Virus record (IMG/VR): IMGVR_UViG_3300020438_000005
Span: 1-33,597 of that record
DNA: 33,597 nucleotides
Strand: one strand, 5' to 3'
Source: a virus
Positions 12,738 through 32,055 of this stretch are shown one piece after another. The position numbers were made by a program, and so were the translations under genes. The stretch's first letter is position 1, and every line of letters begins with the position of its first letter. The notes under the pieces were generated by a model that saw nothing but the letters and a program-made list of their open reading frames with translations, made no database searches and was not told the origin of the DNA.

Positions 12738-13362
12738 TGCCATTCCCTTTTGGTGTTATGGTGTCTTCCCAGCGTTCTCCATTTAAAAATGTAGTCGGCA
12801 GGGGTATGTATTGCGGTTCGGATTTCCAGTTTCCCACTGTAAGTCGCTGCTCAATGTGGAACGCAATCTTACTCATTAATACTTCATCTACTTTCAACGC
12901 TTCCCAAGTTATCTTTGCCTTCTTCTTATTCTCTCGTCTAGGATAAATACTCCAAAACGATTCAAAAGGTATATACTTATATTCCTCTTGTATATTATCT
13001 CTGCTTATTTCGTCAACCCCATCTTGACTATTATCGGTAGGGGGGTTGATGATTTCGTCAAGTGGGTTTATTCGAATTAATCGTTTTACTATTTCGGATT
13101 GTGCGTTTCGCTGGTGTTCAACGCTAATGTGTCCGGCTTTTTTAAGTTGTGCAATCCATCGGCTAATCGTTTCGGGTTTAGATATTCCGTATAGTTTAGC
13201 GAAGTATCCATTTGTTGCCCAACAATAGCCATGTTTGTTAGCCAATGCGCCAATCTCTCCGTATAAGAGTTTAGCGTTTGGCGTGCAGTTGGAACAGTAT
13301 CTAACACTCGCTGGTATTACAGCATAATAGCTAGGTTGCTGTTCGGGGTGTTTGTCGCTCAT
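12664..13362 (-). CDS. Replication initiator, lambda O-like
   Basis: A 232-residue protein. Residues 10-80 (YYAVIPASVRYCSNCTPNAKLLYGEI... to SKPETISRWIAQLKKAGHI) are the winged-helix domain found at the N-terminus of O-type phage initiators. Residues 130-200 (FESFWSIYPRRENKKKAKITW) are the C-terminal domain common in the same proteins. O binds iterons within its own gene and recruits P and DnaB. The linker between the two domains is encoded over a run of short repeats next to an AT-rich stretch (12961-13061), a plausible origin. It overlaps the upstream regulator gene by 32 bases and the downstream P-like gene by 74. Confidence 0.75.
   Translation of the reverse strand: MSDKHPEQQPSYYAVIPASVRYCSNCTPNAKLLYGEIGALANKHGYCWATNGYFAKLYGISKPETISRWIAQLKKAGHISVEHQRNAQSEIVKRLIRINPLDEIINPPTDNSQDGVDEISRDNIQEEYKYIPFESFWSIYPRRENKKKAKITWEALKVDEVLMSKIAFHIEQRLTVGNWKSEPQYIPLPTTFLNGERWEDTITPKGNGNGKSKSSLRRSDVIQRITDRSWAE
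12961..13061. other. Candidate replication origin within the O-like gene
   Basis: An AT-rich stretch (12961-13010) lies beside two copies of ATTTCGTCAA (13007-13016 and 13052-13061) and an 8-base inverted repeat TCAACCCC / GGGGTTGA (13013-13020 and 13042-13049). The position matches the lambda origin, which lies in the middle of the O gene between its DNA-binding and P-binding halves. There are few repeats and they could reflect codon choice in the repeated 'DEI' residues, so this is tentative. Confidence 0.35.
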
Positions 13363-13564
13363 TAGTTTCTCCGCGTTTTATGAATTCCGATACAGGCACG
13401 TTAAAGATTTCTGCAAACGCCTGTACTGTTTCAAGTTTAGCGCCGCGTTGTTTATTAATGATTAGCGATATGGTGGCTGGCGCACAAGCGCCTGTCTTTA
13501 CTATATCTGCTTGGGTCATTTGATGCTTGTCCATGTAATGCCTGAGTGATTTTTCAATATCCAT
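13331..13564 (-). CDS. Cro/CI-type helix-turn-helix regulator
   Basis: A 77-residue DNA-binding protein. Residues 14-58 (QMTQADIVKTGACAPATISLI... to LETVQAFAEIFNV) are a typical HTH_3 domain: MTQxDI opens helix 2, PATISLI is the recognition helix, and VxxFAExFNV closes the domain. I chose the ATG at 13564, since GGAG lies 7 bases upstream and the -10 of the leftward promoter lies beyond it; the frame runs on upstream to 13675 only across the promoter. It has no C-terminal cleavage or oligomerisation domain, so it is closer to Cro than to CI. As first gene of the operon with O, P and nin genes it takes the place of lambda cro. Confidence 0.8.
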   Translation of the reverse strand: MDIEKSLRHYMDKHQMTQADIVKTGACAPATISLIINKQRGAKLETVQAFAEIFNVPVSEFIKRGETNERQTPRTAT

Positions 13565-13591: not shown

Positions 13592-13620
13592 ATTATAGTT
13601 TTTGCTATCCGGGTTTGCAA
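13592..13620 (-). promoter_or_regulatory. Leftward sigma70 promoter of the replication operon
   Basis: Read on the minus strand: -35 TTGCAA (13620-13615), a 17-base spacer, and a perfect -10 TATAAT (13597-13592). Transcription would begin around 13585 and lead into the HTH-O-P-nin operon. The -35 hexamer is its own reverse complement and also serves the rightward promoter. Confidence 0.7.
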
Positions 13621-13643
13621 TGCGAAATGTTATCGGCGATAAT
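13615..13643 (+). promoter_or_regulatory. Rightward sigma70 promoter of the recombination operon
   Basis: -35 TTGCAA (13615-13620), a 17-base spacer, and -10 GATAAT (13638-13643). It drives the genes from 13690 to 15773. It shares its -35 with the leftward promoter, so only one polymerase should be able to bind at a time. Confidence 0.6.
13630..13642. promoter_or_regulatory. Candidate operator, 13-bp perfect palindrome
   Basis: TTATCG-G-CGATAA is a perfect 6+1+6 inverted repeat covering the spacer and -10 of the rightward promoter. A dimeric HTH protein such as the 77-residue regulator encoded next door could bind it and block rightward transcription. Its 3' half belongs to the 15-base element CGATAATAATGCTAT (13637-13651), which recurs at the 18.5-kb control region. 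Confidence 0.5.
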
Positions 13644-13689
13644 AATGCTATGGACTTCGCGGCCAAGGACGGCATTTTGGAGAATTAAT

Positions 13690-15831: not shown

Positions 15832-16056
15832 TCAGCTTATGCTTGGGTCAAGCCAATACCTTGCAATCGATACTGAATTACCATAACGATTTTTAACATT
15901 GACGCGCTCAGTCGTTATCATGTCATGTCCAATCTTATTTCTCAAATCATGAATAACGGCGGCTAGTCGGTAGATTCCTAGTTCGTCAAGCGCTTGCAAT
16001 GGTTCGATGCAATGGTTAATTTTCAAATATTCCAATAACTGATATTGCTGATTCAT
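15832..16056 (-). CDS. Small winged-helix DNA-binding protein
   Basis: A 74-residue protein starting MNQQYQLLEYLKINHCIEPL. The pattern LLEYL...CIEPLQALDELGIYRLAAVIHDLRNKIGH...TERVNV is that of a small helix-turn-helix protein family common in phages and prophages, with a recognition helix around residues 28-40 and a wing ending in a Tyr. It may regulate phage genes or act on host functions. GGGAGAATGAT precedes the ATG. It is the last gene of the leftward set that begins at 18436, ending 58 bases from the SSB-like gene. Confidence 0.7.
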   Translation of the reverse strand: MNQQYQLLEYLKINHCIEPLQALDELGIYRLAAVIHDLRNKIGHDMITTERVNVKNRYGNSVSIARYWLDPSIS

Positions 16057-16057
16057 A

Positions 16058-16465
16058 TCATTCTCCCTTGTGGACTCCGGCGTGGTTTAACATGGTTTCG
16101 ACCTCTTCTAATAGGTCATGAAAATACTTTTGCGCTTCATCGGTATACCCAACGCCATTGTTTTGCTTTTTAAAACGATTGTGGCATTTGTAGGATAAAG
16201 CTAAATCTGCCAGTTCTGAAGTAAGGCAAACCCAATCCTCGGATTTTACTCTAACTTTATTAGGAACAGTTCCATCGACCTTATGCCTTATTGCTATGTG
16301 TCCGTCGATTGGAGCAAAGCAGTTCAACGCGTGTTCATCGGTTTCGCCCTTGTCGGTTTTGTGGGTGATTGTGATAGTGACTCCATCGTGTCCGCTGTCT
16401 GCGTCGATGCGTTCCAGTTTTATTGTGTCCGTACTAAACACGGACGGAAAAGTTGTATAAATCAT
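16058..16465 (-). CDS. Hypothetical protein, leftward early gene
   Basis: A 135-residue protein. I chose the ATG at 16465 since GGAG stands 6 bases upstream; a TTG at 16477 also opens the frame. The first 80 residues look beta-rich (ITITHKTDKGETDEHALNCF, HIAIRHKVDG), the rest helical and acidic (QKYFHDLLEEVETMLNHAGV). It is soluble with no membrane segment. No family recognised. It lies 1 base before the 74-aa HTH gene, so both are co-translated. Confidence 0.55.
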   Translation of the reverse strand: MIYTTFPSVFSTDTIKLERIDADSGHDGVTITITHKTDKGETDEHALNCFAPIDGHIAIRHKVDGTVPNKVRVKSEDWVCLTSELADLALSYKCHNRFKKQNNGVGYTDEAQKYFHDLLEEVETMLNHAGVHKGE

Positions 16466-16477
16466 ATTATTCTCCAA

Positions 16478-16633
16478 TTATGAGTTAAGCCATTCGTCAA
16501 AAGTTTTGAGGGGCTCGCCGGTCGTAAAATCGTTTCCTTGTCCGTCATCAGCGAAAGCAAGATAAGCTTCATACTCGTTTTCATTGGTTCCGCGTGCTTT
16601 GGTTTGCCAATGTTCGTTTTGTTCTAGTTCCAT
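16478..16633 (-). CDS. Small acidic hypothetical protein, 51 aa
   Basis: A 51-residue acidic protein starting MELEQNEHWQTKARGTNENE and containing DDGQGNDFTTGEPLKTFDEW. GGAG lies 8 bases before the ATG. Its ribosome site and first five codons (MELEQ) are nearly the same DNA as those of the next gene upstream (16814), so the two starts arose by duplication. This supports translation of both small frames. A role as a small acidic inhibitor or DNA mimic is possible but not shown. Confidence 0.55.
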   Translation of the reverse strand: MELEQNEHWQTKARGTNENEYEAYLAFADDGQGNDFTTGEPLKTFDEWLNS

Positions 16634-16646
16634 TTTATATACTCCA
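16618..16646 (-). repeat. 29-bp leader/start repeat, copy 1
   Basis: The ribosome site, spacer, ATG and first codons of the 51-aa gene. It is identical over 29 bases to 16799-16827, a direct repeat 181 bases apart. Confidence 0.9.
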
Positions 16647-16814
16647 TTCTAAATAAACAGTTCGCTGCATGTCTTCGTTATTACAGTGGGGGCATGCTTG
16701 AATAGACGGCACAGCTTCTTCAAATATATCATCGCAAACTAAGCAGTGGACTGTTAGCACCGTGAAGCGGTCTTCCCACAGGTCATCGTTACGTGTCGTT
16801 TGTTCTAGTTCCAT
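16635..16814 (-). CDS. Small zinc-ribbon protein, 59 aa
   Basis: A 59-residue protein starting MELEQTTRNDDLWEDRF. C24-x2-C27 (HCLVCDD) and C41-x2-C44 (CPHC) form a probable zinc ribbon, typical of small proteins that touch nucleic acid or RNA polymerase. GGAG lies 8 bases before the ATG. It begins only 18 bases after an intrinsic terminator, so its expression may depend on read-through. The stop is 1 base before the 16633 start, which lies in its last codons' neighbourhood and shares the duplicated leader. Confidence 0.6.
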   Translation of the reverse strand: MELEQTTRNDDLWEDRFTVLTVHCLVCDDIFEEAVPSIQACPHCNNEDMQRTVYLEWSI

Positions 16815-16827
16815 TTTATATACTCCA
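16799..16827 (-). repeat. 29-bp leader/start repeat, copy 2
   Basis: The same 29 bases in front of and inside the start of the 59-aa zinc-ribbon gene. Recombination between the two copies would delete one gene cleanly and fuse the leader to the other. Confidence 0.9.
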
Positions 16828-16831
16828 GTTT

Positions 16832-16864
16832 AAAAAGCCGCCACGGAAACGAGACCGTAGCGGC
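16832..16864 (-). terminator. Intrinsic terminator inside the leftward early gene set
   Basis: On the minus strand GCCGC-T-ACGG, an 8-base loop, CCGT-G-GCGGC and then TTTTT. The stem has ten pairs with one T-G wobble. It lies 12 bases after the 110-aa gene's stop and 18 bases before the 59-aa gene, so it should cut or attenuate expression of the last four leftward genes. Confidence 0.8.
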
Positions 16865-16875
16865 GTGGGTTGTGG

Positions 16876-17208
16876 TTATTGGTGGGCGCAATCTACGGTC
16901 TTTTGTATCGTAGTTTGTCCGGCGGTCGTATAGACTTCGATTTCGTCCAATGGGCGGATAAATAAAAGGCTATCGCTTTTCGGAAACAGCAAAGCACGCT
17001 TAATGCAAGCGCCGTTTACATGGAAACGATACTCTCGCACGCCGTTGGGGTGTTCGCGGTGCGTGGTAGAATGCTCAACAAATGCATGGGAATTGCGCCT
17101 GCTAGTCCCCACAAAAACCGAGACTAGCGCATCTTTGCGAGCGCCCCAAGATTTCCCGCTTTTATAAATACATGCGGTGACTTGATTCCAAATTGGGTAT
17201 GATTTCAT
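16876..17208 (-). CDS. Conserved phage protein of unknown function
   Basis: A 110-residue basic protein starting MKSYPIWNQVTACIYKSGKS. The blocks SWGARKDALVSVFVGTSRRN, then SHAFVEHSTTHR and YRFHVNGACIKRAL, are arranged as in small conserved phage proteins I recall only as hypothetical. It looks beta-rich and compact. GGAG with normal spacing precedes the ATG. The intergenic region upstream holds two small hairpins and the intrinsic terminator follows the stop. Confidence 0.6.
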   Translation of the reverse strand: MKSYPIWNQVTACIYKSGKSWGARKDALVSVFVGTSRRNSHAFVEHSTTHREHPNGVREYRFHVNGACIKRALLFPKSDSLLFIRPLDEIEVYTTAGQTTIQKTVDCAHQ

Positions 17209-17231
17209 TTGATACTCCTGTTTTATGAATT

Positions 17232-17268
17232 GATGCCGGATTGCATCGCATAACGCCGCGTGGCGGCG
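17232..17268. other. Two tandem hairpins between early genes
   Basis: GATGC / GCATC (17232-17247) and CGCCGC-GTG-GCGGCG (17254-17268) lie in the 73-base gap between the 85-aa and 110-aa genes. Neither has a U-tract. They could slow polymerase or mark an RNA processing point. Confidence 0.4.
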
Positions 17269-17281
17269 CTAGCCGATAAAA

Positions 17282-17539
17282 TCAAGCTTTCGATAATCGC
17301 TTACGCTCTTCTTTGATTAATTCGTAAGTTGTAAATCTCTCAAATTCTTGCGCTTTTAATCGTGCGGTTGCTTCCTTTATCGCCGCTGCTCTGGTTTCAA
17401 AATATTCCCAGTCGATAAGATATCCGGCGCTCGGGTGTGTCGCGTCATAGAATCCTTGCGAATCTTTCCAAACTGAAATGTCTTTGGCTTTCCAAATCCG
17501 GCCAATGCCTCGTGCTTTTATAATCCTGCCAATTCTCAT
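17282..17539 (-). CDS. Hypothetical protein, 85 aa
   Basis: An 85-residue basic protein starting MRIGRIIKARGIGRIWKAKD. The N-terminal half looks beta-rich with conserved-looking aromatic residues (GFYDATHPSAGYLIDWEYFE), the C-terminal half is a long charged helix. GGAG stands 8 bases before the ATG, and the start overlaps the previous gene's stop by 4 bases (ATGA). No family recognised. Confidence 0.55.
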   Translation of the reverse strand: MRIGRIIKARGIGRIWKAKDISVWKDSQGFYDATHPSAGYLIDWEYFETRAAAIKEATARLKAQEFERFTTYELIKEERKRLSKA

Positions 17540-17754
17540 GATGTACTCTCCGGGTTATCGCCCGGCAAACGATTTGCCGAACTGGGTGTGTTAGAATATA
17601 AGTCGAGTTGATGGTGCAATAAGTCGTGCTGCTCGGGTTCGGGGTTATATGGTAGATACTGACCGCAAGGCGTACGCAGCAAGCCGTGTTGTTTTAGCTG
17701 CTCATTGGTTAACTTATCCATTGCGGTTAAGAGTTGATAGTCTAGGCTAAACAC
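17536..17754 (-). CDS. Hypothetical protein, about 72 aa
   Basis: A small protein with start uncertain. GTG at 17754 has GGAG 8 bases upstream and is preferred; GTG at 17763 and ATG at 17721 also open the frame. The central part reads MDKLTNEQLKQHGLLRTPCG, followed by a His-rich stretch (EQHDLLHHQLDLY) and a polar tail. No family recognised. It overlaps genes on both sides, consistent with tight packing of the leftward early set. Confidence 0.45.
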   Translation of the reverse strand: MFSLDYQLLTAMDKLTNEQLKQHGLLRTPCGQYLPYNPEPEQHDLLHHQLDLYSNTPSSANRLPGDNPESTS

Positions 17755-17947
17755 TGGCAGCACTCCGTAGAAAGTCGGGGTCGCTGCGCTCTAGCGTTAT
17801 CTCATATCCTAGGGACTGAATGACGCGCAAAGCGTGAGGGGTTAAAGTTTTAGTATCGGTTAACTGGGTGAAACGTCGAGCGACGGAACAAACAGGATAG
17901 TAAACGGGGTTGCCGTAAATGTGTTTTTCTCGAATAACTATTTTCAT
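17747..17947 (-). CDS. Hypothetical protein, 66 aa
   Basis: A 66-residue protein. The ATG at 17947 is chosen for the GGAG 8 bases before it; the frame extends upstream without a good site. It starts MKIVIREKHIYGNPVYYPVC, followed by SVARRFTQLTDTKTLTPHAL and ends in a polar tail. The pattern 'YPVCxVARRFTQLTxTKTLTP' suggests a small compact domain in which a Cys and several Thr may be conserved. Unknown function. Confidence 0.5.
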   Translation of the reverse strand: MKIVIREKHIYGNPVYYPVCSVARRFTQLTDTKTLTPHALRVIQSLGYEITLERSDPDFLRSAASV

Positions 17948-17999
17948 TTTTAAAGCTCCGTTATTTATGAAATGGATCTTGCTATCCAGAGGGGATTTC

Positions 18000-18017
18000 G
18001 GGGCGCTCCCACGCCCC
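18000..18017. other. Intergenic hairpin
   Basis: GGGGCG-CTCCCA-CGCCCC, a 6-pair stem with 6-base loop, lies between the 96-aa and 66-aa leftward genes. No T-run follows on either strand, so an intrinsic terminator is unlikely; a pause or RNA-stability element is possible. Confidence 0.4.
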
Positions 18018-18032
18018 TCATCAGGCAAGTTT

Positions 18033-18323
18033 CTAATACTCGTTCGCGGCATAGCTTCGCTGCTCTACAATTCGGGCGGCGTCTGCTTTCAGTTCGTTAA
18101 GTGCGTCTTCGTAGGTGGCAAAAGGTTTTCCGAAATTGCCCACAAACTCTTGCCATTCACTAAGCGCATAACATTCGCTAAAAGTATCAAATCCATCATC
18201 CCAATGCGCCAATGAATAAACGGCAAGTTTCTTAATTATGGGCTGCTCGCATGATGCCCACCAATTTTTCTCTGATAAGCGCTTTTCTGCCCAAGCCATT
18301 TCTCTATCGTTTACATATTCCAT
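18033..18323 (-). CDS. Hypothetical protein, 96 aa
   Basis: A 96-residue acidic, Trp-rich protein starting MEYVNDREMAWAEKRLSEKN. It is probably helical throughout (SEWQEFVGNFGKPFATYEDA, LNELKADAARIVEQ). GGAGATTATC precedes the ATG. It overlaps the end of the upstream 41-aa gene by 13 bases. No family recognised. It is the second gene after the LexA-box control region, so it is a candidate SOS-inducible phage function. Confidence 0.55.
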   Translation of the reverse strand: MEYVNDREMAWAEKRLSEKNWWASCEQPIIKKLAVYSLAHWDDGFDTFSECYALSEWQEFVGNFGKPFATYEDALNELKADAARIVEQRSYAANEY

Positions 18324-18436
18324 GATAATCTCCTGTTATGTCTTCTAAGTTTTTTGTTGCTCAGTTTCTTATTAAGTTTGGTTTCTTTCCTCGATAGGCT
18401 GGAAACCTCGTTTAGTTTTACTCCGTTTTTTTTCAT
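18311..18436 (-). CDS. Basic mini-protein, first leftward gene after the SOS box
   Basis: A 41-residue very basic protein starting MKKNGVKLNEVSSLSRKETK and ending in a run of Lys, Arg and Asn. The ATG at 18436 has a strong ribosome site (GGAGG 8 bases upstream) and lies about 20 bases beyond the predicted transcription start. The longer frame from 18514 would cross the promoter. It is the promoter-proximal gene of the leftward set. The high charge suggests nucleic acid or membrane contact. Function unknown. Confidence 0.5.
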   Translation of the reverse strand: MKKNGVKLNEVSSLSRKETKLNKKLSNKKLRRHNRRLSWNM

Positions 18437-18464
18437 CGTCCGCTCCTCCCTGTGTACTGAGGTT

Positions 18465-18494
18465 ATTATAGCATTATTATCGTATTGCAAACAA
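18465..18494 (-). promoter_or_regulatory. Leftward sigma70 promoter of the small early genes
   Basis: On the minus strand a perfect -10 TATAAT (18470-18465) is extended by TGC just upstream, with a weak -35 TTGTTT (18494-18489) at 18 bases. The -10 lies at the edge of the 15-base element CGATAATAATGCTAT (18482-18468), also found at the 13.6-kb promoter, and the LexA box begins 1 base beyond the -35. Confidence 0.6.
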
Positions 18495-18495
18495 A

Positions 18496-18511
18496 CTGTA
18501 CATTTATACAG
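18496..18511. promoter_or_regulatory. LexA (SOS) box
   Basis: CTGTACATTTATACAG fits the gamma/beta-proteobacterial LexA consensus CTGT-N8-ACAG with an AT-rich core. It lies between the leftward -35 (18489-18494) and the rightward -35 (18524-18529), so bound LexA could hinder both promoters. On DNA damage the early leftward genes, and perhaps the packaging operon, would be released. Confidence 0.65.
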
Positions 18512-18523
18512 CATACGGAGGTA

Positions 18524-18553
18524 TTGATTGTCGGGTGTTACAAAAGATATAAT
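18524..18553 (+). promoter_or_regulatory. Rightward promoter of the packaging and head operon
   Basis: -35 TTGATT (18524-18529), an 18-base spacer and -10 TATAAT (18548-18553). The downstream base C and the 'TTGATTG' start are shared with the capsid promoter at 24633. It leads into the small terminase region. Confidence 0.6.
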
Positions 18554-18576: not shown

Positions 18577-18819
18577 GTGCAGCGCATGGGTAAAGGCTAT
18601 CTGGACCAACTGCCAAAAGCAGACATCGACCGACATTTTCCAGAGAAGAACGGAGGGAAAGGAGCCCACGCCCGAAAGTCAACCGCGGAGAGTCGGCAAC
18701 GATTCCGAGACAATTACGATTTAATTTTTGGCAACGATTCACACGCACGCGCAGGCGGCCCCCCCCTTCCCGAAGGCGCGGCGCAGAACCCTGTAGCCTC
18801 CAGCTCAAAAAAAAATTGA
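18577..18819 (+). CDS. Small hypothetical protein upstream of terminase
   Basis: An 80-residue protein from GTG at 18577, or 77 residues from ATG at 18586 (MGKGYLDQLPKADIDRHFPE); neither has a strong ribosome site. The motif RKSTAESRQRFRDNYDLIFG resembles a short motif (DNYDxIFG) of small proteins found near phage terminase genes. After it the tail is low-complexity, encoded over a run of eight C (18759-18766) that could be a slippage or sequencing weak point. The gene lies 10 bases before the terminase small subunit candidate. Confidence 0.5.
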   Translation: MQRMGKGYLDQLPKADIDRHFPEKNGGKGAHARKSTAESRQRFRDNYDLIFGNDSHARAGGPPLPEGAAQNPVASSSKKN

Positions 18820-18829
18820 GGATTATTTA

Positions 18830-19144
18830 ATGCCATCACGTTTAGGATGTCCCAATCGAAATAAGAAGTTTCTTCATTCGCGTTTAAAAGAGATGTATGG
18901 AGAGCATTTTAACCCCATATTGCGTGCTGCTGAGGCAGCTAACCAATTGCATGAGTTAGCGCAAGAAACCGGCACAGCGGCTGATTTATCGCGTTCTGTG
19001 GATGCTTGGGTTCGTGTAGGTGAGTTTGTAGAACCGAGATTAAAGGCCACGACTATTGAAGCTGATGGTGGTTTGACTGTTTCTATTCAGCGCAAGCGTT
19101 ATGATGGTACGGTTGAAGAAGAAGAGATTGATACAGACGAGTAG
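18830..19144 (+). CDS. Candidate terminase small subunit
   Basis: A 104-residue protein starting MPSRLGCPNRNKKFLHSRLK. The arrangement 'LKEMYGEHFNPILRAAEAAN...A-x-DAWVRVGEFVEPRLKA' matches a small phage protein found just upstream of large terminase genes and often called the small subunit (basic start, helical pair, then a YVEPKLKA-like motif). The C-terminus is acidic. GAGG precedes the ATG by 8 bases. The small subunit would recognise packaging sites on phage DNA. The call rests on pattern and place and not on a clear fold match. Confidence 0.55.
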   Translation: MPSRLGCPNRNKKFLHSRLKEMYGEHFNPILRAAEAANQLHELAQETGTAADLSRSVDAWVRVGEFVEPRLKATTIEADGGLTVSIQRKRYDGTVEEEEIDTDE

Positions 19145-19433: not shown

Positions 19434-19655
19434 ATGACTATATCTTGTTATGTTTGTGGCAATAAAGAAAATTTAGATGGTTTTGTTGATTACGAAGATA
19501 GCAGTCCTGATGTAGACCATATTTCGATATTTCAATGTAATGCTTGTTTATGTAGTGTAACGATTACTTATCCGTCTCAAAAATTTGTTGATGCTGTTGA
19601 TGAGTTTTTAGAAGGGCCACATTTACGTTTGGTAAGAAAGGGTGATATTGAATGA
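19434..19655 (+). CDS. Small zinc-binding protein, 73 aa
   Basis: A 73-residue acidic protein. C5-x2-C8 (CYVCGNKENLDGF) and C35-x2-C38 (CNACLC) would hold zinc. It ends 4 bases into the large terminase gene (ATGA). Tandem with the 57-aa Cys-rich protein just upstream, it may be a paralogue. No ribosome site is obvious (AT-rich before the ATG). Possible roles include DNA binding during packaging, but this is not shown. Confidence 0.5.
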   Translation: MTISCYVCGNKENLDGFVDYEDSSPDVDHISIFQCNACLCSVTITYPSQKFVDAVDEFLEGPHLRLVRKGDIE

Positions 19656-21106
19656 ATATTGAATACAATCTTATGCCACAGGGTAAGGTGTTGCAGGATT
19701 TTTCTGATTGTAGGGAGCGTAATTCTTTTATCATGGGGCCTTTAGGTTCTGGTAAGACGGTTCAATGTATTCTTAAATTGTTTGATTTAATGTGCGAACA
19801 AGAGCCTGTTAAACAAAAAGGTCATAAGAATAATGGTGTTCGTTTATCTAGGGTTATAGCGGCTAGGAACACGTATAGTGAGTTATTTTCTACTACGATT
19901 AAGGATTGGTTGGAAATACATGGTGAGCTAGGAGACTTCAAACAAGGTAATAAAGAACCACCTACTCATTATATACGGTTTAATTTAGAGGATGGCACAC
20001 AGGTACATTGTGACGTTATATTTATAGCCTTTGATAGACCAGAACACGTTAAGAAGGCTAGGGGTATACAGACTACATGGGTGTGGTTAAACGAGGTTAA
20101 GGAACATTCCAAGGCTGTTTTGGATATGTTAGACCTGAGACATGGTAGATACCCATCGAATAAGGAGGGTGGTAGACCCACACATCATGGCATTATTGGT
20201 GATACTAACGCACCTGATGAAGACCATTGGTATTTTAAGATTGCTGAGATAGAAAGGCCCGAAGGATGGGCGTTTTATCGTCAGGCTGGTGGTGTTTTTA
20301 AGGATGGTGAGAGTTGGAAGTTAAACGATAATGCCGAAAACCTGATAAACCTACCATCTGATTACTACAAAAGGGGTATGAACGGTAAGGATAATGATTG
20401 GATAAAGGTTAATCTGGCGAACGAATACGGCTTTGTATCTAATGGTAAACCTGTACACCCCATGTATACTGATTCAGTACACTGTCAGCACCTGGATTTT
20501 AAACCAGATAAAGACATTCCTATTGTTTTAGGCTTTGACTTTGGACGAACACCAGCCTGTGCGTTTATTCAGAAAACAGCAATAGGGCGGTGGATTTGTT
20601 TTGATGAACTGGTGTGTACAGATAGTGGTGCTGTAGATTTTGCGCCTACGTTAAAACGCTACATTGAAGAACATTACCCTAATTGTACGTTTAAAGGCTG
20701 GGGTGACCCATCGGGTAATAATAAAAACCAGTCTAATTCTGATACACCATTTCAAATAATTCGTGCAGCAGGAATACCCTGTCATCCTACTCAATCTAAT
20801 GACCCTCTAAAACGCAGAGCAGCCCTAGAAGTGCCTATGAAAGAGATGTGTATGGATGGTAAGCCACGTTTTACTGTACTACCTAAAGCCTCAATGATTC
20901 GCAAAGGGCTACAAGGTGGCTTTTGTTATCGCAGGGTACAGGTATCCAATGAACGATATACTGATGAACCTGATAAAAATGAATATTCACACCCTGTAGA
21001 AGCACTTGAATATGCTTTACAAGGCGAAGGAGAGGGCCGTCAAGCATTAAGACGTACTGGATTTACTAAACCAATTACAGCAAAAGTAAATTTTAGTGTC
21101 TTCTGA
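19652..21106 (+). CDS. terL: Terminase large subunit
   Basis: A 484-residue packaging motor. The ATPase half has Walker A GPLGSGKT at residues 29-36 and Walker B VWLNE at about 143-147. The RuvC-like nuclease half has its first Asp in LGFDFGRTPA (around residues 293-299), the second in GWGDPSG (around 350) and a C-terminal HPVEALEYAL segment where the last acidic residue normally lies. It cuts concatemeric DNA and pumps it into the prohead through the portal. It starts at an ATGA overlap with the Cys-rich gene, and its end overlaps a GTG-started gene by 11 bases. Packaging type (headful or cohesive end) cannot be told from sequence. Confidence 0.92.
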   Translation: MNIEYNLMPQGKVLQDFSDCRERNSFIMGPLGSGKTVQCILKLFDLMCEQEPVKQKGHKNNGVRLSRVIAARNTYSELFSTTIKDWLEIHGELGDFKQGNKEPPTHYIRFNLEDGTQVHCDVIFIAFDRPEHVKKARGIQTTWVWLNEVKEHSKAVLDMLDLRHGRYPSNKEGGRPTHHGIIGDTNAPDEDHWYFKIAEIERPEGWAFYRQAGGVFKDGESWKLNDNAENLINLPSDYYKRGMNGKDNDWIKVNLANEYGFVSNGKPVHPMYTDSVHCQHLDFKPDKDIPIVLGFDFGRTPACAFIQKTAIGRWICFDELVCTDSGAVDFAPTLKRYIEEHYPNCTFKGWGDPSGNNKNQSNSDTPFQIIRAAGIPCHPTQSNDPLKRRAALEVPMKEMCMDGKPRFTVLPKASMIRKGLQGGFCYRRVQVSNERYTDEPDKNEYSHPVEALEYALQGEGEGRQALRRTGFTKPITAKVNFSVF

Positions 21107-21705: not shown

Positions 21706-23285
21706 GACTTCCTAAAGAGCTAGGCTCATTGAATGACCTTAAACGCAGAGAAGCAAAAGCGTTTGAAGCGACAATGTATTGGCACTCATTACTTGATGAT
21801 GTTTACGAGCAGTTTCTGCCTAATAGAAATTTGTTTGATAACAACCGTCAAGGCCAAAATAAAATGGAGCATATTTTTGATTCAACTCCATTAGAGGCTA
21901 TTCAACAAGGCGCATCTAAATTACAGGAAAACATTGCGCCTATCTGGACGCGGTGGGTTACATTTGCACCATCTAATCAAATTATAAATTTAATGCAGCA
22001 ACAAGATGTTGGCATTACTGAAGAACAATTACGCGCAATACTAGAACAACAAGCTATTGTTGTATTTGATTACATTAATCGAAGTAATTTTGCTACACAG
22101 TTTTTTGAACACGCGCTAGACCTGTTAGTTGGTACAGGCACTATGCGTGTAGACGAAGAAGATGATGACAATATGCCTCTTGTGTTTAATGCTATTCCGC
22201 AAAAAGGTTTGGCATTTGAGGAAGGGCCATATGGAAGTATCGAAACACATTGGAGACGATTTAAAGTAAAAGCTAGAAACTTAGAAAGACAATGGCGTGG
22301 CTTTAAACCATCTCAAAAATGTGCAGATATGATTAAAAACGCACCTAATGAAGAAGTTGAAATAGCAGAAGGTGTAGTATATATACCTAAAACCAAAACA
22401 TATTATGGTTGTGTATGGTTAAAAGACGAAGATTATATTAGTTGGATGGAAGATTATGGCGCATCTAGTCCTTGGGTAACAGGTCGATATTCAAAAGTAT
22501 CGGGTGAAGTAAGGGGTCGAGGCCCAGCATTGCAAGCATTACCCGATGCTAAATCATTAAACAAGACGAAAGAGTTTGTTTTACAGAAAGCGGCAATAGA
22601 TTTAGCAGGAATGTACACCGCAACGGATGATGGTGTGACTAATCCTTATAATATTTCTATTTCGCCCGGAATCGTAATTCCAGTAGGGTCTAATAATAGC
22701 GCTAATCCATCAATTCAACGATTAGATACTGGTGCTAATTTAAGTTTAGTAGAGTTTGAAATAACTGAATTACAGATGGCAATCAAACGAGCATTATTTA
22801 ATGATTTGCGCGACCCAGCAGGGCCAGTTCGTTCAGCTACAGAGGTAGCAATTGAATCAAGGGAGTTAGCAAAACGAATTGGTAGTGCGTTTGGTCGGTT
22901 GCAAACAGAAGTTCTTATACCTATTATTAAACGTGTTGTGTATATTTTATCACGCAGAGGTTTAATTACACCTATTCAACTCAATGGCAGAGATGTTGAA
23001 ATTAAATTTTTGTCACCATTAGCTAAAGCGCAAGACGGTGAGGATTTATTATCTGTCCAACAAGCAGTATCGTTTGTTATGCAAACAGCAGGAGCAGAAC
23101 AAAGTTCATTAGCATTTAAAACGGAAAACTTTGGAACATGGGCAGCACAAAAAACAGGTATGCCATCTGAGTTAGTAAGAAGTGAAATGGAAAAACAACA
23201 ATACATCCAAGCAGCGGCTCAAGCCATGGAGGCAGGCATGCAACCGTCAGCACAAAATGAAGGGCCTCAAATGCAAATGCAATGA
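21702..23285 (+). CDS. Portal (head-tail connector) protein, T7 gp8 type
   Basis: A 527-residue protein. Residues 16-80 (AFEATMYWHSLLDDVYEQFL...IFDSTPLEAIQQGASKLQEN) followed by PIWTRWVTFAP fit the T7-type head-tail connector family, as do VRSATEVAIESRELAKRIGS (around 375-395) and RLQTEVLIPIIKRVVYIL. Twelve copies would form the ring through which DNA enters and leaves the head. Length matches T7 gp8 (536). The gene is flanked by ATGA overlaps on both sides. The C-terminal tail is Gln- and Met-rich. Confidence 0.9.
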   Translation: MRLPKELGSLNDLKRREAKAFEATMYWHSLLDDVYEQFLPNRNLFDNNRQGQNKMEHIFDSTPLEAIQQGASKLQENIAPIWTRWVTFAPSNQIINLMQQQDVGITEEQLRAILEQQAIVVFDYINRSNFATQFFEHALDLLVGTGTMRVDEEDDDNMPLVFNAIPQKGLAFEEGPYGSIETHWRRFKVKARNLERQWRGFKPSQKCADMIKNAPNEEVEIAEGVVYIPKTKTYYGCVWLKDEDYISWMEDYGASSPWVTGRYSKVSGEVRGRGPALQALPDAKSLNKTKEFVLQKAAIDLAGMYTATDDGVTNPYNISISPGIVIPVGSNNSANPSIQRLDTGANLSLVEFEITELQMAIKRALFNDLRDPAGPVRSATEVAIESRELAKRIGSAFGRLQTEVLIPIIKRVVYILSRRGLITPIQLNGRDVEIKFLSPLAKAQDGEDLLSVQQAVSFVMQTAGAEQSSLAFKTENFGTWAAQKTGMPSELVRSEMEKQQYIQAAAQAMEAGMQPSAQNEGPQMQMQ

Positions 23286-29526: not shown

Positions 29527-32055
29527 ATGGCAAGAGAACCTATTACATTTCAATCGCTTGGCACACAGTTTAGACCTATTGGTAGAGACCCTACGGCTGG
29601 TGCAAAAAATCAAGCTAATGCTGAAATATTTGCACAAATAAGGCGTTTAGCAAGCGGTGCTGGAACAGCCGAAGCAGAACGTATAGCACCAGAATTAGCT
29701 CAAGCACAAATAGATGAAGCTAAAACAGCCGCTGTTGAAAATAACGAACCTATTAAAATGCCAGAAAAACGGTTAGGAATAATTCCGGGCGCACAACAAT
29801 ATAACAGACAAATTGAATTAGGATATAAAGCTGAAGTAGCTATGTCCTTTGATAGTAATATTAATGCAATTGCAGAACCATATTTAAATGATAGCTCACG
29901 CAATCCCGCAGAGTTTCAAAAAGTAGCGGAAGGTTTTTTTGAAGGTTTTAGCAAGTCAATTGACCCTGTTATAGCACCGTCTATTATCCCTCAAGCACAA
30001 GGAAAAATATCTAGTTTATTTACATCATTAAATAATAAATATTTAGCACAAGAATTAAAAAACGCAAATGCAGCAGTAAAAAATACTCAATCAATGTTAA
30101 CACGCGAAATGACCGATGCTATTGTTTCTGGTGACAATACAAAAGCAAAAATGCATTTTCGTCAACTTCGTGAAGGTATTGAGGCTTATAGCGCTGCAAA
30201 TCCTAACTTTGACAAAGCAACAGCATTACAGGGTCTTGGCGCTACAAAAAAAGATGCTGAAATTACAGCAGAAGCTAATCGAATATTTAACGAACAAGGC
30301 TCTGGTGCAGCGCTTCAATACATTGAACAGTTTAGAATTAACAAACCGTCCGAATGGACACAAGAACAAACAATAACAAATTTAGCGCAATTACAAACAG
30401 ACATTAATCGGCGCGAGTCAATTAATAAATCATCTACCGCAGCACAAAATGCAGTAATTAGAAATGACCTTAATACGCTATTAAAAATGGCAATGAACGG
30501 AGACAAACTTCCTCCAGAAGATATAAACGAACTAGAAACAAGTATTGCTTTAATGCCTGAACTAGAACGAGGGCCTGCGCTTGAAGTAATCCAAAATGTG
30601 CGGTCAATACAACAGTATACAAGTTTAGATGCTAAAGCGCGGCAAGATATGCGAGAAGCAACTAATACGTCTGAAACATATCCGTTGTATTTAAATTTAG
30701 TAGAAGCAGAAAATAAATTGCAAAACGCTTTTGAACATAAAGGCATTAAACAATTAGTTGACATGGGTATTGTGTCGACAGAAGACATGGATGAATATAC
30801 AGGATTTATTACAACATTATTTGAAGACATTAGTGCAGCAGAAAACTCTGGTGATATTCAAGCAACATTTGACCAATTTTCTGCAAGCTATAAACAATTG
30901 CAAAAATATGCATATCAAGCAAGCGACATAGCTGGCAACCCAGTATCTATGTTTCTTCCTAAACAAGTAGACACGTTAGTAGGTCAATTAAAATCATTTA
31001 CTAAATTAGAAAACGAAGGACAAAATGTTTTTCCTATGGCTCAAAAATTAGCATTAGTAGCCGCATTAAGTGTAGACCCACAAAATAGTATTTTTGCTAA
31101 TTTAGCTAAAAACGGTCAAGGCTCAATGGCTGTGGCTGGGCAAATAATTGCAAATACAAATAATTTTGGATTAGCTCAAACAATACTTCAAGGACAAAAT
31201 CAAATTAATACTAATCCTGAGTTATACAACATTGAAAAACCACTTATGAGTCAAGCAACAGAAACATGGAATGAAATGACAGCAGGAATTTATGATAACC
31301 AACCACCGTTTGTTACAAAGGCAGTTCGTGACGCAGTAATGGCATATTACGTTACATTAGACGATGCTAAAGTAACTTCAACAAATAACGCAATAGATAA
31401 AAGATTATATAAGGAATCGATAGATGCTGTAACAGGTGGCATTTCAAAGTTAAACAACCACAATTATATTCTTCCATTAGATTTTAGACGGGGAATAAAT
31501 GGTAATGATGTTGAAGCGTATTTATTTCAAGTTATGGATAGCAATACGTTTTGGAATATGGAAGAAGTTAAAATGCCCGATTTTAAGTTGCCTGCACGTT
31601 ACAAAGAAGGCAGCCCACAATTTAATCCAATGAGGTTAAATCAAAACCGACCATTTGCAGATAATGGTATTCCATTAATATCAAAAGCAGAATGGGATAA
31701 TGTAGGTTTAGTTAGTGTTGGCACAAATCGTTATAAATTAATTAGAGCAGGGCAATCTGGAAGTGTAAATAACCCAGCACAAATGATTAAAACGAAAAAT
31801 GCAGATGGTGGAATTTCAGATTACATTATAACAATTACGCCAGATATGATTTATACGTTTAAAGAACAAGAACGAATAAAACAAGGCACAAGCGATGCAA
31901 AATTGTCTGATTTAATAAGTCGTGAGCAAATTAAAAGTGCAGAAGCAGGGTCACCAGTTGAACTTAATTTAATTGACAATATGCAACTTAAAAGACAAAA
32001 CGAAGAAGAATGGAAAAAAGCGCAAGTCAAAATATTAAAAGAAATGGATGACTAA
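29527..32055 (+). CDS. Internal virion protein, T7 gp15-like by position
   Basis: An 842-residue, mostly helical protein with many Gln, Asn and Ala. It starts MAREPITFQSLGTQFRPIGR. There is no membrane segment or catalytic motif that I can see. T7 gp15 (747 residues) is likewise a large helical core protein ejected into the periplasm with gp16. Its place between the gp14-like protein and the 604-aa protein fits. A ribosome site precedes the ATG weakly (AGGATATATT). Confidence 0.75.
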   Translation: MAREPITFQSLGTQFRPIGRDPTAGAKNQANAEIFAQIRRLASGAGTAEAERIAPELAQAQIDEAKTAAVENNEPIKMPEKRLGIIPGAQQYNRQIELGYKAEVAMSFDSNINAIAEPYLNDSSRNPAEFQKVAEGFFEGFSKSIDPVIAPSIIPQAQGKISSLFTSLNNKYLAQELKNANAAVKNTQSMLTREMTDAIVSGDNTKAKMHFRQLREGIEAYSAANPNFDKATALQGLGATKKDAEITAEANRIFNEQGSGAALQYIEQFRINKPSEWTQEQTITNLAQLQTDINRRESINKSSTAAQNAVIRNDLNTLLKMAMNGDKLPPEDINELETSIALMPELERGPALEVIQNVRSIQQYTSLDAKARQDMREATNTSETYPLYLNLVEAENKLQNAFEHKGIKQLVDMGIVSTEDMDEYTGFITTLFEDISAAENSGDIQATFDQFSASYKQLQKYAYQASDIAGNPVSMFLPKQVDTLVGQLKSFTKLENEGQNVFPMAQKLALVAALSVDPQNSIFANLAKNGQGSMAVAGQIIANTNNFGLAQTILQGQNQINTNPELYNIEKPLMSQATETWNEMTAGIYDNQPPFVTKAVRDAVMAYYVTLDDAKVTSTNNAIDKRLYKESIDAVTGGISKLNNHNYILPLDFRRGINGNDVEAYLFQVMDSNTFWNMEEVKMPDFKLPARYKEGSPQFNPMRLNQNRPFADNGIPLISKAEWDNVGLVSVGTNRYKLIRAGQSGSVNNPAQMIKTKNADGGISDYIITITPDMIYTFKEQERIKQGTSDAKLSDLISREQIKSAEAGSPVELNLIDNMQLKRQNEEEWKKAQVKILKEMDD

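Follow-up and report, generated by a model that had tools for sequence, protein, structure and literature searches.

Organization of the locus

The window analysed here, an IMG/VR virus record of 33,597 bases with a GC content of 40%, carries its terminase, head-tail adaptor, capsid and tail genes in the rightward direction, together with an Erf/YqaJ recombination operon and a leftward replication operon (including an O-like initiator and NinG). The features that bear on the argument, one to a line, are as follows:

13331-13564, minus strand: 77-aa XRE (Cro/C1-type) regulator at the head of the replication operon, lacking an S24 cleavage domain
15832-18439, minus strand: leftward operon with roughly ten small genes (open reading frames, most without a family match), the proposed LexA-controlled unit
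15832-16056, minus strand: last leftward gene, a winged-helix HTH_39 protein (PF14090, E = 7.6e-11; phrog_4973)
Start at 18439, minus strand: first leftward gene, 42 aa, with a strong Shine-Dalgarno sequence (GGGAGGAG)
18465-18494, minus strand: predicted leftward early promoter by consensus match, TTGTTT-N18-TATAAT (-35 at 18494-18489, -10 at 18470-18465)
18496-18511, no strand assigned: predicted LexA-type operator CTGTACATTTATACAG (20-mer AACTGTACATTTATACAGCA at 18494-18513)
18524-18553, plus strand: predicted rightward promoter, TTGATT-N18-TATAAT, with 10 of 12 consensus matches (-35 at 18524-18529, -10 at 18548-18553)
18586-18819, plus strand: first rightward gene, a conserved small HFPExNGGKG protein of unknown function, which almost all relatives carry beside TerL, 48-76% identical to the window's version
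18759-18817, plus strand: single-copy C8-TTCCCGAAGGCGCGG...A9-TT element, conserved in relatives, a candidate cos/pac site or origin
18830-19144, plus strand: putative small terminase subunit (terS), with approximately 40-52% alignment to the gene at the same place in relatives and no family match
19652-21106, plus strand: large terminase subunit (phrog_2, E = 1.2e-13)

The terminal HTH_39 protein is the only recognizable regulator or domain in the leftward operon. Nearly all of its genes lack any family match, and none matches an antirepressor or DinI family, which leaves the original suggestion of a promoter-proximal antirepressor or inducer gene without support, although an antirepressor could lie among the unmatched genes. 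No viral contig with the same leftward gene set was found, the protein encoded at 18033-18323 had no relatives among viral contigs, and that encoded at 17282-17539 had a single distant one, in an unrelated context. A search of viral contigs with the window's TerS protein found no relatives, a pattern search with the leftward promoter returned only unrelated contigs, and a distant blastn comparison of the 17.5-21.2 kb region with phages gave a single 63-bp match.

Both promoters were called from consensus matches alone. The palindrome lies 1 base from the leftward -35 hexamer and 12 bases from the rightward one, distances that agree with those first reported, and it spans bases about 49 to 64 upstream of the point where rightward transcription is inferred to begin. 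The leftward -35 sequence, TTGTTT, is poor (3 of 6 consensus matches), and an alternative leftward pair, TGTACA-N18-AATAAT, overlaps it and would place its -35 inside the palindrome. The site is therefore positioned, at the predicted leftward promoter, where LexA binding could hinder RNA polymerase. An artefact of coding sequence was considered and set aside, the palindrome being outside coding sequence provided that translation of the 42-aa gene begins at 18439, where the ribosome site is strong, rather than at an upstream ATG at 18514. As a separate observation, the leftward promoter (18465-18491) and a rightward promoter at 13.6 kb (13614-13650) have TTTGCAATRCGA and CGATAATAATGCTAT in common, perhaps as an operator through which the XRE regulator acts on both; a 15-mer common to the two promoters is only marginally above shuffled controls.

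A predicted LexA operator

The original description of 18496-18511 as a match to CTGT-N8-ACAG was confirmed, coordinates included, and the scoring against a LexA matrix that it had proposed was carried out with an approximate 20-position matrix built from about 20 E. coli sites. On this matrix CTGTACATTTATACAG reaches 21.2 bits (the training E. coli sites span 13-24), and the second-best site in the window reaches 12.0 bits. Its heterology index, calculated from the same training sites, is 4.8 (E. coli recA, 4.6). The CTGT-N8-ACAG palindrome with its AT-rich core has the form of a beta/gammaproteobacterial LexA box, a motif of this type being that of E. coli and of most beta- and gammaproteobacteria (PMC3108266).

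The exact probability of such a box under a first-order Markov model is 4e-8 per position, corresponding to 0.0014 expected by chance per window and 4e-6 in the promoter gap of approximately 110 bp. This significance derives from the AT-rich core and the flanks rather than from the bare eight-letter pattern, which, with one mismatch allowed, occurs 12 times in the window against 11.4 expected and is thus at chance level. There are only two exact CTGT-N8-ACAG sites in the window; the second, at 22122-22137, lies within the head-tail adaptor gene and is absent from the top matrix matches.

Boxes in related phages

Boxes that fit the LexA consensus turn up at different promoters across the phage group. 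The matching promoter itself is usually without one: none is present at that position in the relative closest in TerL (L002, 95%), whose leftward genes form a different set, nor in most of the approximately 45 loci for which sequence 5' of terS is available. In favour of the LexA reading, about 750 kb of first-round relatives contained no site of at least 14 bits outside the terminase region. An anchored pattern search with ACAGTACCCCCCNCC gave, among the matches listed, mostly unrelated sequences and no usable statistics.

The boxes that do recur stand in three settings. In L113 (identical to L003), L114 and L115, the leader of a leftward operon keeps TACTGTTTATTTATACAGTG, with a TATAAT about 21 bases upstream of it; the sister loci L010, L012 and L117 share that promoter and lack the box. 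The boxed operon of these three loci carries an ardC antirestriction gene (PF08401, PF18818, phrog_7245; the Pfam families were tested in L115). The ardC-type gene of the relatives' leftward operon lies at 1251-2129 in L115 and, as read directly from the letters, at about 6000-6880 in L002.

In the second setting, comprising 23 loci (L283-L303, L314 and L319), the box precedes a metallophosphoesterase gene (phrog_221) by 67 bp and ends 2 bp 5' of the -35 of a TTAGAA-N17-TATAAT promoter. Across the 16 distinct sequences there are 4 deviations over the 8 half-site positions, as against 16 over the 8-bp core and 46 over the 17 spacer positions, so that the half-sites are conserved about as well as the -35 and -10 hexamers while core and spacer drift; this is how an operator would be predicted to vary. 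In another three relatives (L304-L306) the site is degenerate. The boxed metallophosphoesterase gene is found in one branch of relatives, downstream of an Erf/exonuclease/SSB operon.

The third setting is a cultured phage of Vibrio parahaemolyticus, ZCVPP1 (L112, PV295601.1), in which AACTGTAGATTCATACAGTT abuts a -35-like TTGCAC, with an annotated gene following after approximately 60 bases; another site, of 17.6 bits, lies approximately 540 bases away. The two LexA-like sites of ZCVPP1, at 30708 and 31252, bracket a region of about 0.6 kb whose sole annotated gene is a short reverse open reading frame, perhaps spurious. The geometry in the window (box, one base, -35) matches that of the phosphoesterase loci and of ZCVPP1.

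The probable reader of the box

No S24 peptidase (PF00717), the domain of LexA/CI-type cleavable repressors, was found in the window or in 19 relatives, and the control genomes were positive. Nor was an integrase (PF00589) found in the window, its relatives or ZCVPP1, records that may be incomplete; three more distant Vibrio phages do have an integrase, and the AT-rich boxes are absent from them. Since the phages encode no detectable S24 repressor and the motif is of the E. coli type, the LexA protein of the host is the simplest reader.

Information on the host comes from a sole cellular match, a relative's contig in a Piscirickettsiaceae metagenome-assembled genome (MAG). In this host surrogate, which may be incomplete, no LexA was found and canonical boxes did not exceed the control level, and the phage that it contains has no box above 11.3 bits. 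A MAG lacking a LexA match whose phage lacks a box fits the reading of the site as a target of host LexA, but this is one genome, and possibly an incomplete one.

The site at 18496-18511 is thus probably an operator at which host LexA represses the leftward operon until the SOS response; from the letters of the DNA we infer the binding of host LexA, repression by it and the role of the operon alike. In an undamaged host, LexA would sit one base outside the leftward -35, covering its edge (or, if the alternative promoter applies, occupying its -35), and RNA polymerase would be blocked; RecA-driven cleavage of LexA, provoked by DNA damage or by infection itself, would then release the operon from 18439 to 15832. 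Matrix score, geometry and the recurrence of the same architecture in relatives all argue for the original proposal that LexA controls the leftward early operon. The contents of the boxed operons in relatives (ardC in L115) suggest, by analogy, early host-takeover functions. Of the broader proposal of SOS-coupled development, LexA control of the leftward operon is the probable part. No lysogeny gene (integrase or S24 repressor) came to light in the window or its relatives, so that classical prophage induction is without support.

Palindromes and a conserved element beside terS

LexA-like palindromes are also found, single or in tandem (for example TACTGTATGGATGTACAGTA and CACTGTACGAATATACAGTA), within approximately 100 bp of the terS stop codon in about 25 of about 80 loci, where they lie 3' of terS, directly before or near a single-copy element of 56-60 bp. 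In relatives this element has the form C6-9...GAAGGCGCG...TATATATAT...A9TT and is next to terS in most (L002-L081, 3' of terS); the window's copy stands before terS, overlaps the end of the preceding open reading frame and has no LexA-like array. It may be a packaging (cos/pac) site or an origin, which is a guess. Six contigs (L005, L006, L063, L066, L068 and L069) start inside the element. The parts of BcepC6B and of Pseudoalteromonas phage Y3 that were scanned contain no comparable box and no C/A element.

In several loci the interval between the terS stop and the element is filled with DnaA-box-like TGTGNATAA repeats, on one strand only and 70-fold enriched over the remaining DNA. These arrays, mostly together with LexA-like palindromes, are located as follows:

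L003, about 510-608, one strand: TGTGNATAA array
L015, 5840-5936, one strand: TGTGNATAA array
L017, 6240-6367, one strand: TGTGNATAA array
L036 and L039, one strand: TGTGNATAA arrays
L045, 622-732, one strand: TGTGNATAA array

No promoter was recognized by eye in the arrays 3' of terS.

Alternative readings

The original prediction extended LexA control to the rightward terminase and head operon, and a version of it in which LexA at this box also, or even mainly, governs that operon and so couples packaging to SOS draws on the position of the box between both promoters and on the many relatives in which LexA-like boxes fall within the packaging operon, immediately 3' of terS. Direct rightward repression is nevertheless doubtful because the inferred start is approximately 56 bases from the box centre; the relatives' boxes that have a clear promoter serve other genes, and those 3' of terS have none recognizable by eye. 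The rightward packaging promoter may be repressed too, though less probably than the leftward one, and packaging control as a whole is unlikely.

The palindrome might alternatively be the operator of a phage regulator, such as the 77-aa XRE protein encoded in the window, its likeness to a LexA box being fortuitous or a case of mimicry, and one such regulator may serve both the 18.4-kb and the 13.6-kb promoters through the sequences that they share. Against this, the window has a single site above 12.0 bits, the promoter of the XRE gene itself has none, the E. coli consensus recurs over its full 20 bp, flanks included, upstream of different genes in relatives, and no LexA/S24 homologue is encoded; the proposal seems improbable.

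It is likewise improbable that the LexA-like palindromes of the group, that of the window included, are terminase (pac/cos) or replication-origin repeats rather than LexA operators. The tandem arrays directly before the 58-bp single-copy element in many relatives, and the enriched one-stranded DnaA-box-like repeats, would be explained in this way, but the box is linked to a promoter and outside such arrays in the window, in L113-L115, at the phosphoesterase loci and in ZCVPP1, and that of the window is separated from the element by approximately 250 bp that include a gene. A chance palindrome without function, which the absence of a box at this promoter in most relatives would fit, is hardly credible given the expectations calculated above and the recurrence of boxes at relatives' promoters.

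Comparison with known systems

Phage operons controlled by LexA are known from temperate phages, in which they serve prophage induction. The LexA-controlled antirepressor operons of coliphage 186 (tum), N15 (antC) and Salmonella Gifsy prophages (gfoA/gftA) (PMC3121763) resemble the host-LexA operator proposed here in having a small phage operon whose promoter carries a LexA box and repressors that are not cleaved, the Gifsy circuit employing small DicA/RacR-type regulators. Unlike those phages, no antirepressor, integrase or CI-type immunity gene was found here, the first genes of the operon have no family match, and the boxed unit in relatives carries ardC or a metallophosphoesterase gene. 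Such antirepressor modules belong to temperate phages with an integrase or other maintenance system, and PF00589 is absent from the present records, which may be incomplete.

Bacillus phage GIL01 uses host LexA directly as its repressor (PMC6182141; PMC4551915), as is proposed for the window, and the lack of a phage-encoded cleavable repressor is common to both. GIL01 is temperate, infects a Gram-positive host and has tandem boxes at early and late promoters, a co-repressor (gp7) and an activator (gp6), whereas the present phage is podovirus-like, has one box of gammaproteobacterial type and yielded no lysogeny gene.

The PSOSP method calls SOS-dependent prophages from a LexA heterology index, and 99.34% of the bacteria with canonical boxes were Gammaproteobacteria (PMC12527982). 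A low-heterology box in a phage promoter region is what the window shares with prophages called in this way, which are integrated and have a known host, unlike the free virus contigs without integrase described here. Related terminases are found in HTVC010P/MEP301-like marine podoviruses (MEP301 also has a related portal) and in Burkholderia phage BcepC6B; unlike the window, the whole MEP301 record has no LexA box of at least 11 bits, and neither does the half of BcepC6B that was scanned.

Implications

A phage operon with a LexA box is of a known kind; what is unusual is the recurrence of such boxes at different operons in phages where no integrase or cleavable repressor was found. Some genes of this phage and its relatives are probably switched on when the DNA of the host is damaged. 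More tentatively, and with somewhat less than even confidence, a widespread marine podovirus-like group without integrase or self-cleaving repressor may have repeatedly wired different operons (early genes of unknown function, ardC, a metallophosphoesterase gene and perhaps packaging) into the LexA regulon of the host; a non-lysogenic phage would then read the SOS state of its host during infection, and some members have tandem boxes next to the candidate packaging or origin site. With ZCVPP1, a cultured Vibrio phage is at hand in which this idea can be put to a direct test. If it is true, these phages would use SOS as a signal of timing or host state during infection, or would keep a dormant state that is not integrated.
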